A stretch of 64,000 bases of DNA from Atopobium fossor DSM 15642 (GTDB taxonomy: Bacteria > Actinomycetota > Coriobacteriia > Coriobacteriales > Atopobiaceae). The notes below the pieces were generated by a model. That model was given only the letters and a program-made list of their open reading frames with translations, searched no databases and was not told the DNA's origin. Shown one piece after another: positions 55,373 to 59,958 of this stretch. The DNA lies in the NCBI RefSeq assembly GCF_000483125.1, contig NZ_AXXR01000004.1, positions 124,001-188,000 on the forward strand, read 5' to 3'. The translations under genes were made by a program, and so were the position numbers. Positions within the stretch are counted from its first letter, which is position 1. Each line of letters starts with the position of its first letter.

Positions 55373-55678
55373 GACGAGCCTCCTTTGCGGGAGATAATAA
55401 CGGATTATCTTAACGGATACCATACTACCTAAAATAAGCGCGTATTGGATGACTGTAGACGCTGTAATCGGTGTCTAACATCAATATGTCGCTGCATAGA
55501 ATGACTAGTAAATAGTGGTCATTTAGCCGTTATAAGGTAATAAATGCATAAAATATTATAAAAAATGAATATAATTACTGTAATATTTCGAGATTTTATA
55601 GGTCCAACGGTCTATACTAGATGTAACGAATTCCCGGTAATTGGCTACACAAAGCTTGTAGCCCCTAAAGGAGGAAAA
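55373..55678. promoter_or_regulatory. Divergent control region of the repeat-protein pair and the alcohol dehydrogenase
   Basis: 306 bases without a gene. On the right it holds a -10-like TATACT (55613-55618) about 60 bases before the dehydrogenase start, an AT-rich inverted repeat AAATATTA (55551-55558) / TAATATTT (55581-55588), and AAAGGAGG at the end. No promoter could be fixed on the left; the sequence between is unremarkable. Confidence 0.4.
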
Positions 55679-56893
55679 ATGGGACGTTTTACTAACCCGC
55701 GCGACTTGTACTTTGGAGAGGGTGCACGTCATGAGGTAAAGAACCTCAAGGGTTCCCGCGCAATAATCGTTTCCGGTGGTAGCTCTATGCGCCGTGGCGG
55801 TTTTTTGCAGGATATCGAGGCAGACCTTAAGTCTGCTGGCTTCGAGGTAGCATTCTTTGAGGGTGTCGAATCTGATCCATCCGTAGAAACGGTTATGAAG
55901 GGTGCTGCTGCAATGGCAGAGTTCCAGCCTGACTGGATTATTGCTGTTGGTGGCGGTTCTCCTATCGATGCAGCTAAGGCTATGTGGATTAAGTACGAGT
56001 ATCCCGAGACTACCTTTGAGCAAATGTGCGTTGTATTTGGTCTTCCTGAGCTTCGCCAGAAGGCTCATTTCTGTGCAATTTCTTCTACCTCTGGTACTGC
56101 TACCGAGGTAACTGCATTCTCTATCATTACTGATTACTCTAAGGGTATTAAGTACCCTATTGCTGACTTCGAGATTACCCCCGATGTGGCAATTGTTGAC
56201 CCTGAGCTTACTTATACCATGCCTGCTAAGCTTTGCTCTCACACTGGTATGGACGCTCTTACTCACTGCATGGAAGCATATGTTTCTACCGTTGCTTCTA
56301 TGTACACCGACGGTAACGCACTTCACGGTATCCGTGAGATTGCTGAGTGGCTGCCTAAGTCCTATAAGGGCGATAAAGAAGCTCGTCAGCACATGCATGA
56401 TGCACAGTGCATTGCTGGTATTGCATTCTCTTCTGGTCTGCTTGGTATTGTTCACTCCATGGCTCACAAGACTGGTGCTGCATTTAGCGGTGGTCATATC
56501 ATCCATGGCTGCGCAAATGCTATGTATCTTGGCAAGGTCATCCAGTTTAACGCCAAGGATGAGCGCGCTGCAGAGCGTTATGCCTTTGTAGCTAAGGAAG
56601 TATTGCATCTTGAAGGCAGCACCAACGAGGAGCTTGTAGCTGCTTTGGTACAGTTCATTCGTGATATTAACGACAAGTTGGACATCCCCCAAGCTATCAA
56701 GAACTATGGCGAGGGTGGCGTAAAGTCTGAGACTTCTATTATTGATGAGTCAGAATTCCTCGAGAAGCTTCCTGTTATTGCTGCTAACGCAATTGATGAT
56801 GCTTGCACCGGCGCTAACCCCCGCAAGCCTACTCAGGAAGAGATGGAGCAACTCCTCAAGTGTGTCTACTACGACCTGCCTGTTGAGTTTTAA
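55679..56893 (+). CDS. Iron-containing (group III) alcohol dehydrogenase
   Basis: A 404-residue NAD(P)H-dependent alcohol dehydrogenase/aldehyde reductase. The nucleotide-binding motif AVGGGSPIDAAKAMW, TSGTATEVTAFSI, and the metal-binding histidine region GMDALTHCMEAYV and GIVHSMAHKTGA/GGHIIHGCANA are present. Related proteins form the C-terminal half of AdhE and butanol dehydrogenases. Codon bias is strong, so it is probably abundant. The ATG at 55679 has AAAGGAGG upstream; the longer frame from 55565 has no such site. Confidence 0.93.
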   Translation: MGRFTNPRDLYFGEGARHEVKNLKGSRAIIVSGGSSMRRGGFLQDIEADLKSAGFEVAFFEGVESDPSVETVMKGAAAMAEFQPDWIIAVGGGSPIDAAKAMWIKYEYPETTFEQMCVVFGLPELRQKAHFCAISSTSGTATEVTAFSIITDYSKGIKYPIADFEITPDVAIVDPELTYTMPAKLCSHTGMDALTHCMEAYVSTVASMYTDGNALHGIREIAEWLPKSYKGDKEARQHMHDAQCIAGIAFSSGLLGIVHSMAHKTGAAFSGGHIIHGCANAMYLGKVIQFNAKDERAAERYAFVAKEVLHLEGSTNEELVAALVQFIRDINDKLDIPQAIKNYGEGGVKSETSIIDESEFLEKLPVIAANAIDDACTGANPRKPTQEEMEQLLKCVYYDLPVEF

Positions 56894-56944
56894 TCTCTAC
56901 GCAGTATAGACGCTTGCGCACAAACGCAGTATAACAAGCTTATT

Positions 56945-56987
56945 AAAACCCATCGAGTTTGGATGTCTGTCCACTCGGTGGGTTTTT
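56945..56987 (+). terminator. Terminator after the alcohol dehydrogenase
   Basis: The stem AAAACCCATCGAGT / ACTCGGTGGGTTTT (one wobble) is followed by T-run and A. It lies about 50 bases past the stop. Confidence 0.88.
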
Positions 56988-57062
56988 AGTTGTCCAAAAT
57001 ATATTTCTGATCGTTTAGCTGTGTTTTAAAGCTGTTCTAGCTGATAAAGGTTCCAATTTTTC

Positions 57063-57081
57063 GGGGGGGGGGGGGGGGGGG
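57063..57081 (+). repeat. Poly-G tract of 19 G before the surface protein gene
   Basis: Nineteen consecutive G directly precede TAGAAT (57082-57087), a -10-like hexamer, 44 bases before the surface protein ATG. Long homopolymers of this kind are slippage hot spots; located next to a promoter element they can switch expression. The true length in the sample may vary, and assemblers often miscall it. Confidence 0.85.
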
Positions 57082-57125
57082 TAGAATAAAAACCAGTATA
57101 AAAAACCGAACTAGGAACATACCAT

Positions 57126-58922
57126 ATGAAGCTTAGAAAAGTACTACTAACCTTTTTATCTTCCATACTTTGTATAAACCTTGCTTTGCCTGCTGCACCC
57201 GTCTATGCAGATGACAGTGTTATCGCTCTACCTAAGAGTGAGAAGCGTATAGAGCTGGAAGAACTTATAAGTCAAGCAAAACAGCTGGGTGTTACCGTTA
57301 CTGAGTCAAGTAAAAATGAAACAGTGTCCTATGAGGAGAAGGATGCTCGAAATCAAACGCTTGATGCAGATTACGATGCCCAGATTACAAGTCTTAAGAC
57401 TGCTATCGAGAAGCAAAAGCTGAGTAATGAGCAGTATGAGCAAGATCAAAAATCTGCAATTAAGAGTCTTGCTGGCAGTGAATGGACAGAAGAGCAGCTC
57501 CGTGATTTTCTGAGTGAGGGAGAAAATAAAGTATCGGTCCTTACAACACAGGATACATCCATGAAGCTCATGGATTTTGATGTGCTTAAGAGTGCAACGT
57601 CGTTTAAAAAAGGACAGACACTTACATATACTCATGTATTCCAGGATAGTCTGACGGGCAAATGGATTGATGTAGCTCTTACCTTTACAAATATTACCAA
57701 CCCTATAACTGGCGCTGAACTCAATAGCGTTTCATATCTTAATTCGGGTATTTATGCCAATCAAATTGCATTGTCTTATCAAGTAGCAGATATCACAATG
57801 GATGTTGCTTTCTATGAAAATGGTACCGATGTACCAATAAAAATTAGTCCAATTGTTATTTTTACTGATGTTGATGATAGGCAAGCAGTAAAGATTGACA
57901 GTCCCGAGACAAAGAAAATGATTTTTGGCAGCAAACTTCACCTGCAAGATGGTTTTGTGGATTCCAGAAATGGTGGATCAGACGGGACTGACGGAAGTAA
58001 CAGAGCTTATTGGGCAATGTTCGCCCTGAGTGAGACAGACAAATTTACGTATACGTTTAAGTCTGGTAGCAGTACAGTGCTACATGGTATTGGTGTAAAG
58101 TCAACCTTGTATACTCGTCCTCAAAAGGCCTATGAATCAGCAGCAGTCTCCTATACAAATCTATTGCTTAAACAGGAAAAGCAAACCATTTCTGGTGAGA
58201 AAATCTGGCAGGATGACAACAACCGTGATGGTATTCGTCCCAACAACATAACCCTTGCCTTAGTGCGCAATGGCCAAGATACAGGTCAGACTACTCAAGC
58301 AAGCTCAACAAGTAACTGGAAGTATAGCTTTGCCAATCTGGATACCTATGATAATCAGGGTAATAAAATTAACTATTCTGTCAAAGAGATTTTGGTGCAA
58401 GGGTACACTTCTAAAACTGAAGGCTTCAAAGTAACTAACACCTACCAACCTAAAACCACTTCAGTGAAAGTTAAAAAGGTTTGGAACGATGCTGGTAAGG
58501 AGAGCAAGCGACCAGCTTCTGTTACGGTCAGGCTTATGGCCGATGGGCAGGAAGTGGCACAGCACATCCTGAATGAACAAAATAATTGGGCAGCAGAATT
58601 TGAAGATGTCTTTGTTAACCAAGATGGTAAAGCTATTGTGTACACTGTGCAGGAAGTTGCAGTAGATGGATACACAAGTACTCTTACAGGAGATACAGCT
58701 AACGGCTTTGAGATTATCAACACCCCCAAGCTAGACCCTGCTCCAAATCCAGCAAAAGATTCTGCTAAACCAACAGTCCAACTAGCTATTCAAACTGCCA
58801 CAAAGATGCTGCCAGCAACAGGAGATGTCACGCCACTTATGCAGTTGACTATAGGTCTGACTCTAGGAGTGACAGCTTTTGGTATTGCGATTGCTATACG
58901 TCGTAAAAAGAATAATAGCTAG
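57126..58922 (+). CDS. LPXTG-anchored surface adhesin (GbpC-like domain, two Cna_B repeats)
   Basis: A 598-residue cell-wall protein. Signal peptide about 1-28 (basic MKLRK, hydrophobic core, APVYA|DD), then a coiled-coil-like region (residues 35-130, rich in E/K/Q), a domain resembling the GbpC/antigen I/II V-region (MKLMDFDVLKSATSFKKGQTLTY and following beta-rich part), two Cna_B-type repeats (about 352-440 and 443-535; KKVWNDA, KIWQDD starts), a sortase motif LPATG at 562-566, a hydrophobic segment and a basic tail RRKKNNS. It should be anchored to peptidoglycan by sortase. Preceded by a 19-G run; expression may be phase-variable. Confidence 0.9.
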   Translation: MKLRKVLLTFLSSILCINLALPAAPVYADDSVIALPKSEKRIELEELISQAKQLGVTVTESSKNETVSYEEKDARNQTLDADYDAQITSLKTAIEKQKLSNEQYEQDQKSAIKSLAGSEWTEEQLRDFLSEGENKVSVLTTQDTSMKLMDFDVLKSATSFKKGQTLTYTHVFQDSLTGKWIDVALTFTNITNPITGAELNSVSYLNSGIYANQIALSYQVADITMDVAFYENGTDVPIKISPIVIFTDVDDRQAVKIDSPETKKMIFGSKLHLQDGFVDSRNGGSDGTDGSNRAYWAMFALSETDKFTYTFKSGSSTVLHGIGVKSTLYTRPQKAYESAAVSYTNLLLKQEKQTISGEKIWQDDNNRDGIRPNNITLALVRNGQDTGQTTQASSTSNWKYSFANLDTYDNQGNKINYSVKEILVQGYTSKTEGFKVTNTYQPKTTSVKVKKVWNDAGKESKRPASVTVRLMADGQEVAQHILNEQNNWAAEFEDVFVNQDGKAIVYTVQEVAVDGYTSTLTGDTANGFEIINTPKLDPAPNPAKDSAKPTVQLAIQTATKMLPATGDVTPLMQLTIGLTLGVTAFGIAIAIRRKKNNS

Positions 58923-58951
58923 TACAACTTTGCGATAGTAAGTGTATTGAC

Positions 58952-58993
58952 AACTACGGTGCCCAGATACTATCTGGGCACCGTAGTTCTTTG
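58952..58993 (+). terminator. Terminator of the surface protein gene
   Basis: A very strong stem of up to 18 bp, AACTACGGTGCCCAGA/TCTGGGCACCGTAGTT, with a short loop, followed by TCTTTG. About 30 bases past the stop. Confidence 0.9.
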
Positions 58994-59053
58994 TGATTGG
59001 GTATGTGCCGGATACAGTGAATTTGCTTATGATGAAACAAAACTAAAACGAAA

Positions 59054-59089
59054 GCCTGCGTTACTAACCACGATTGGCAGGCATTTTTT
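59054..59089 (+). terminator. Second hairpin before the DeoR gene
   Basis: A 6-bp stem GCCTGC/GCAGGC around an inner GTTA/TAAC stem, then ATTTTTT. A weaker terminator-like element; it could insulate the downstream regulator. Confidence 0.55.
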
Positions 59090-59211
59090 GAAAAACATAG
59101 AGGTTATATAGTAAGAAGGCCATTTACTCTTTACATTTTCTTGTCATATGTTTACATGTAGACTTACCAATGAATAAACAAAACCATTTCGAACGAAATT
59201 CATGAGGTTAT

Positions 59212-59958
59212 ATGTCTAAACGTGATAGCGCTATTTTAGAGATTCTTACGCGCCGCAAGCGGATAGAAGTATCCGAACTCTCTGAAATTCTCGATGTTTC
59301 TAATGTGACCATCCGTAAAGACCTTGATGCTCTTCAAGCGCAAGGATTGGTAATCCGTGAGCACGGTTTTGCGCTTCTTGCTAATCCCAATGACGTAAAC
59401 GGACGACTGGCATATCACTATACGGAGAAACTTCAAATTGCTAAGCGTGCCGCAGACTTGGTCAAGGATGGATCAACCATCATGATCGAAAATGGTAGCT
59501 GCTGTGCTTTACTTGCACGTGAAATTGCTCTAGCCAAACACAACATTACTATTGTGACTAATAGTACGTTCATAGCAAATTACGTGCGCGATTTTCCTTC
59601 TATAAGTACCACGCTGCTGGGAGGATTTGTTCAGCCGGATTCTCAGGTGGTAGTGGGCCCCTTGGTGCGCTTGTGTGCTCGTGAGTTTTCTGTTGAATAT
59701 CTCTTTGCCGGTACTGATGGCTGGTCTTCTAACATAGGCTTTACCAACTCTGATCAAATGCGTGCAGAGTCCGTGCGCATTATGGCACAGTCTGCCAATG
59801 AGGTCATCATTCTTACAGAGTCCGAGAAATTCTCGTCTACCGGTGCGGTTCCTTTGCGTATTCAAGACCGCCCCATTACGGTGATTACAGACAATCAGAT
59901 GCAGCCTATGTATGTCGAACAAGCTCAAAAGTTGGGTCTAGGTATTGTTCGTGTCTGA
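59212..59958 (+). CDS. DeoR family transcriptional regulator
   Basis: A 248-residue sugar-phosphate-responsive repressor: an N-terminal helix-turn-helix (ILEILTRRKRIEVSELSEILDVSNVTIRKDLDALQAQGLV) and a DeoR C-terminal sensor domain (MIENGSCCALLARE, VVGP, AGTDGWSSNIGFT). It precedes the second mannose-type PTS operon and probably represses it. The ATG is preceded by an ATGAGGTT site. Confidence 0.9.
   Translation: MSKRDSAILEILTRRKRIEVSELSEILDVSNVTIRKDLDALQAQGLVIREHGFALLANPNDVNGRLAYHYTEKLQIAKRAADLVKDGSTIMIENGSCCALLAREIALAKHNITIVTNSTFIANYVRDFPSISTTLLGGFVQPDSQVVVGPLVRLCAREFSVEYLFAGTDGWSSNIGFTNSDQMRAESVRIMAQSANEVIILTESEKFSSTGAVPLRIQDRPITVITDNQMQPMYVEQAQKLGLGIVRV

Follow-up and report, generated by a model that had tools for sequence, protein, structure and literature searches.

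The run of 19 G that directly adjoins a -10-like box upstream of a predicted cell-wall-anchored adhesin gene in Atopobium fossor is most plausibly understood as a slippage-prone promoter spacer, or the larger part of one, that would render the adhesin phase-variable at the level of transcription. Considering the anatomy of the locus together with the recurrence of its arrangement in related genomes, we assign this reading a probability of about 0.65. According to the proposed mechanism, the G run would account for the whole, or the greater share, of the spacer in a promoter belonging to the adhesin gene itself, with TAGAAT serving presumably as the -10 element and one of two candidate hexamers as the -35 element. 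Replication slippage within the run is expected to add or remove G residues; this would alter the distance, and the face of the helix, between the -35 region and TAGAAT, and adhesin transcription would then differ between sister cells.

Results

The G tract and its candidate promoter

The analysis covered a stretch of 64 kb, here referred to as the window, whose features relevant to the adhesin locus are collected in Table 1. The original prediction of a 19-G run immediately before TAGAAT, 44 bases from an adhesin gene, is borne out by the coordinates read from the sequence (tract, 57063-57081; TAGAAT, 57082-57087; ATG, 57126), and the local layout can be written as AAAGGTTCCAATTTTTC-G19-TAGAATAAAAACCAGTATAAAAAACCGAACTAGGAACATACCATATG. 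The further remark that no comparable homopolymer had been noticed elsewhere in the window was likewise borne out: the G19 tract is the sole run of at least 8 of any base, and the length histogram of G runs passes from 1-6 straight to 19. Under a first-order model, the number of such runs expected by chance in 64 kb is 4e-8. In the genome as a whole (1.65 Mb, 4 contigs) there are five G tracts of at least 8, the second longest being 10. The G19 tract is situated at position 181063 of contig C3, in the contig interior and with clean flanks.

Table 1. Features of the adhesin locus, in window coordinates
Feature	Position	Strand	Basis
Hairpin and T tail resembling a terminator, 3' of the iron-containing alcohol dehydrogenase gene	56969..56983	+	Terminator scan
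TTCCAA, -35 candidate A; 3/6 match, 25-bp spacer with 19 G	57051..57056	+	Sequence scoring
TTTTCG, -35 candidate B; 3/6 match, overlaps first G, 18-bp spacer with 19 G	57058..57063	+	Sequence scoring
G19 tract, putative promoter spacer and site of slippage	57063..57081	+	Read from sequence; homopolymer count
TAGAAT, -10-like box; 5/6 match, directly abuts tract	57082..57087	+	Sequence; family enrichment of G tract-TAnnnT
AGGA, Shine-Dalgarno-like, 9 bases before ATG	57113..57116	+	Read directly from sequence
Predicted sortase-anchored adhesin, 598 aa: signal peptide, Adhesin_P1_N, two Cna_B, LPATG	57126..58922	+	Pfam, B-repeat match, translation
LPATG sorting motif codons, then hydrophobic stretch and RRKK	58809..58823	+	Translation
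Terminator-like, perfect inverted repeat of 16 bp, 3' of the adhesin gene	58954..58986	+	Read directly from sequence
Cassette (leader, G tract, adhesin gene, terminator), extent approximate	56894..59118	+	Synteny and alignment with L121 (sister species); right edge approximate

Regarding the promoter elements, TAGAAT alone qualifies as a good -10 at this position. The two -35 candidates tie and are both weak compared to the TTGACA consensus of many relatives; those relatives that show the same layout carry TTGACA or TTGAAA in the -35 position. A consensus promoter scan called no promoter at the locus. The original prediction had placed TTCCAA 25 bases from the -10 with 19 G and 17 bases from it with 11 G. 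This spacing holds for candidate A, whereas candidate B scores equally and lies at 18 bp, and because of the ambiguity neither the 25-bp spacer of the sequenced allele nor good spacing at 11 G is established. Were candidate B the -35 in use, the sequenced 19-G allele would be near the usual spacing. The tract length that corresponds to the ON state cannot be told from the sequence. The wider prediction of a poly-G promoter spacer before a surface adhesin draws support from the anatomy, along with the promoter class found across the family; the ON length of 11 G is not established. A structured leader downstream of TAGAAT was considered as well and was dropped, the predicted leader folding no better than shuffled sequences.

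The adhesin and its single-gene unit

The anticipated sortase-anchored adhesin downstream of the tract was confirmed from the Pfam domains and from the LPATG motif with its hydrophobic tail and RRKK. Pfam places Adhesin_P1_N at residues 30-113 of the 598-aa product and identifies two Cna_B domains (E 3.1e-50), the first starting at residue 355; between Adhesin_P1_N and this domain it gave no match, hence no known ligand-binding A region was found there. The B region matches the B repeats of solved collagen adhesins. A signal peptide, repeats of the B type and an LPXTG-type anchor at the C-terminus together predict a sortase-anchored protein on a Cna_B stalk and, considered with Adhesin_P1_N, a product exposed at the cell surface, as in systems of the porA type. 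Among 140 family genomes no full-length relative of the adhesin was found, the best alignments there covering the C-terminal half only, and what matched in plasmids and in public or family genomes was partial and mostly confined to the Cna_B region.

The gene upstream (55565-56893) encodes an iron-containing alcohol dehydrogenase according to Pfam, and the hairpin that follows it separates it from the adhesin unit. In the sister species (L121), the corresponding dehydrogenase (90% identical) has the DeoR-type regulator (59212-59958 in the window) as its immediate neighbour, with neither adhesin nor G tract in between. The gene and its tract therefore make up a unit of one gene, either acquired in A. 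fossor or lost in the sister species. Absence of the unit from the sister species, taken together with the low G+C content of the adhesin gene (41.1% vs 45.7% for the window), suggests that the unit may be a recent arrival. Its downstream flank was not found in viral contigs. The sister species also has G11 and G9 tracts located 4 bases 5' of probable start codons (L123 and L202), at which position the tracts would form or displace the Shine-Dalgarno region.

Candidate G-tract promoters across the family

A survey of the 140 family genomes revealed that a run of at least 9 G followed directly by TAnnnT occurs 29 times, in 22 genomes from 13 genera, compared to 3 times for the backwards pattern (binomial p about 1e-6 if the matches are independent). 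TTGAC within about 12 bases before a run of at least 9 G was found 20 times, against 4 in the control. Some of the 29 matches are intragenic, with the tract in signal-peptide codons (e.g., L217, L227). These two are G9 tracts in related exported proteins from two species, and their placement would suit a frameshift switch.

Collected without regard to their flanks, 74 tracts of at least 11 G included 10 with a -35/-10 pair around the tract, whereas shuffled flanks gave a mean of 0.92 and never reached 10 in 2000 trials. Mirrored flanks yielded 0 pairs; reading these 74 tracts on the C strand yielded 4, so the background of the pair count is not negligible. Predicted pairs in the family include TTGACA-9-G14-TATCTT (L224), TTGACA-4-G11-TAACTT (L210), TTGACA-9-G10-TAGCAT (L211), TTGAAA-8-G10-TATACT (L206) and TTGAAA-9-G11-TAGTCT (L221). 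Spacer length varies between 15 and 23, as would be expected of an unstable spacer and not of a fixed promoter. The G19 tract is longer than most intact tracts of this promoter class. A second candidate of the class is present in the A. fossor genome itself, where TTGACA-7-G8-TATATT (L253, C2:252593-252601) lies 43 bp before an NYN-domain gene. In the same genome, two genes that neighbour each other, DUF4230-like and EcsC, have G10 and G8 tracts within the reading frame close to the N-terminus (L251, C2:127517; L252, C2:129328), both frames being open in the assembly.

One and the same predicted arrangement of -35, G run and -10 precedes many other surface proteins in the family genomes. The domains of the downstream proteins comprise CWB2 cell-wall-binding, choline-binding, collagen-binding with SpaA, Cna_B, aRib, Listeria-Bacteroides repeat, beta-helix and BspA-type LRR. 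Judged by a simple rule for signal peptides, 19 of the 29 downstream genes encode exported proteins as compared to 23 of 148 neighbouring genes, a count that is indicative only since the set was assembled by promoter pattern and the starts were chosen by hand.

Tract-length differences and repair genes

Differences in tract length are evident from an orthologous promoter in a related genus (L255-L282), which precedes an ABC ATPase gene and not an adhesin. Its G tract lies between TTGCC and TTCTCCTGGCG-TAGAAT, and the uninterrupted run numbers 8, 9, 10, 11 or 12 between species, with a spacing of 18-22 bp, above the usual 17. Most of the species read conserve the flanking TTGCC, TTCTCC and TAGAAT; another base breaks up the run in a few copies, and 2 of 26 lack it. 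Within one genome of the family (G085), two copies that are 97% identical over 382 bp (L145, L146) carry runs of 16 and 21 G. A long exported protein is encoded after one of them, and the other is followed by no more than a short reading frame whose beginning is similar and whose remainder differs. Very long G runs were observed in two highly similar regions from two genera, namely 28 in one (L144) as well as 26 and 99, beside masked bases, in the other (L195); these may be artefacts of assembly or reflect a mobile element.

The MutS ATPase domain, which is common to MutS2, and NucS were not found in three genomes of the genus, in which the positive controls were found. Their lack would favour slippage. 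A broader proposal, on which we see the odds as even, is that the family shares poly-G promoter spacers, with MutS and NucS repair apparently absent from the three genus genomes, and that the adhesin at 57126 belongs to a family-wide set of contingency genes. The common device would consist of an unstable G run flanked by a -35 box and a -10 box, placed before unrelated surface proteins and before the ABC transporter gene.

Discussion

There exist precedents in Neisseria, Bifidobacterium, Gardnerella and Propionibacterium acnes, and the kind of switch suggested here is thus already known. Promoter-spacer phase variation is ascribed to Neisseria porA and fetA (van der Ende 1995; Carson 2000; both cited in PMC5320596). 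The A. fossor locus is like them in having a homopolymer between, or abutting, candidate -35 and -10 elements and a surface protein downstream; in sequence form, T5-C-G19-T compares with the T(8-11)-C-G(6-8)-T of gonococcal porA (PMC5320596). It differs in belonging to another phylum, in its longer tract and in its two weak -35 candidates, and the product is a predicted cell-wall-anchored adhesin as opposed to an outer membrane protein. Bifidobacterium breve is likewise a Gram-positive actinobacterium with poly-G tracts at sortase-dependent surface structures, and its pilus tracts undergo slippage, with mixtures of G10-G12 in one culture (PMC9187656). Those tracts lie within the coding sequence and act by frameshift, whereas the G19 tract is outside the reading frame, upstream of the ATG and adjacent to the candidate promoter elements. 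In Gardnerella, according to the excerpted text of PMC11287997, about 70% of G/C tracts are upstream of genes, many of which encode LPXTG or Rib surface proteins, and one tract varies, 9 or 10, between colonies. The position upstream of a surface-protein gene is shared; in the same excerpts, the Gardnerella tracts are not resolved to a promoter spacer and are far more abundant (median of 20 G/C tracts of at least 8 per genome). A likeness in placement as a promoter spacer comes from HPT_37 of P. acnes, a G/C tract whose inferred position is between the -35 and the -10 and which is associated with a two-fold expression difference between strains that differ in tract length (PMC4746626). It differs in that the tract is short (5 or 7 C), the gene is metabolic and variation follows clades, not fast switching. 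The literature searched on phase variation in Atopobium, Coriobacteriia, Collinsella and Olsenella gave no report of a G-tract promoter class.

The tract could be unstable and still exert its effect on expression differently from a promoter spacer, that is, as part of a 5' leader transcribed from a promoter further upstream, or via a G-quadruplex or polymerase stalling. A quadruplex could form from 19 G on the non-template strand, the -35 candidates at the locus are weak, and the sister-species tracts close to start codons would act in translation. Yet the interval from the upstream terminator to the tract showed no better promoter, and the family-wide enrichment of TAnnnT directly after G tracts and of TTGAC before them speaks against it; nor does the folding of the predicted leader lend itself to such a role. 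We consider this explanation unlikely.

It is more improbable still that the tract is neutral or decaying and without regulatory effect, for instance as a leftover of cassette acquisition. Such an origin would be in keeping with the absence of the whole unit from the sister species, with a gene G+C below that of the window and with the observation that some P. acnes G/C tracts mark sites of rearrangement (PMC4746626), but it leaves to coincidence that one of just five runs of at least 8 G abuts a -10 box and ends 44 bases short of an adhesin gene that is intact, in an arrangement repeated in many relatives. Very little weight is given to the tract, or its length of 19, being an artefact of assembly or sequencing. 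Contig-end G runs and artefact-like G/C blocks do occur in relatives (G011, G116, L157, L174); the run here is inside a contig, has clean flanks and an intact gene after it, and many separate genomes show its arrangement again. A miscount of the 19 G is quite possible, and a false tract at this locus is unlikely.

Lastly, if the G19 tract is indeed a slippage-prone promoter spacer, a little-studied bacterial group would vary its surface adhesins cell by cell via promoter tracts, and what the population displays could hardly be read from a single sequenced genome. The family-wide pattern supplies a list of candidate switches that are testable with ordinary long-read or amplicon data.
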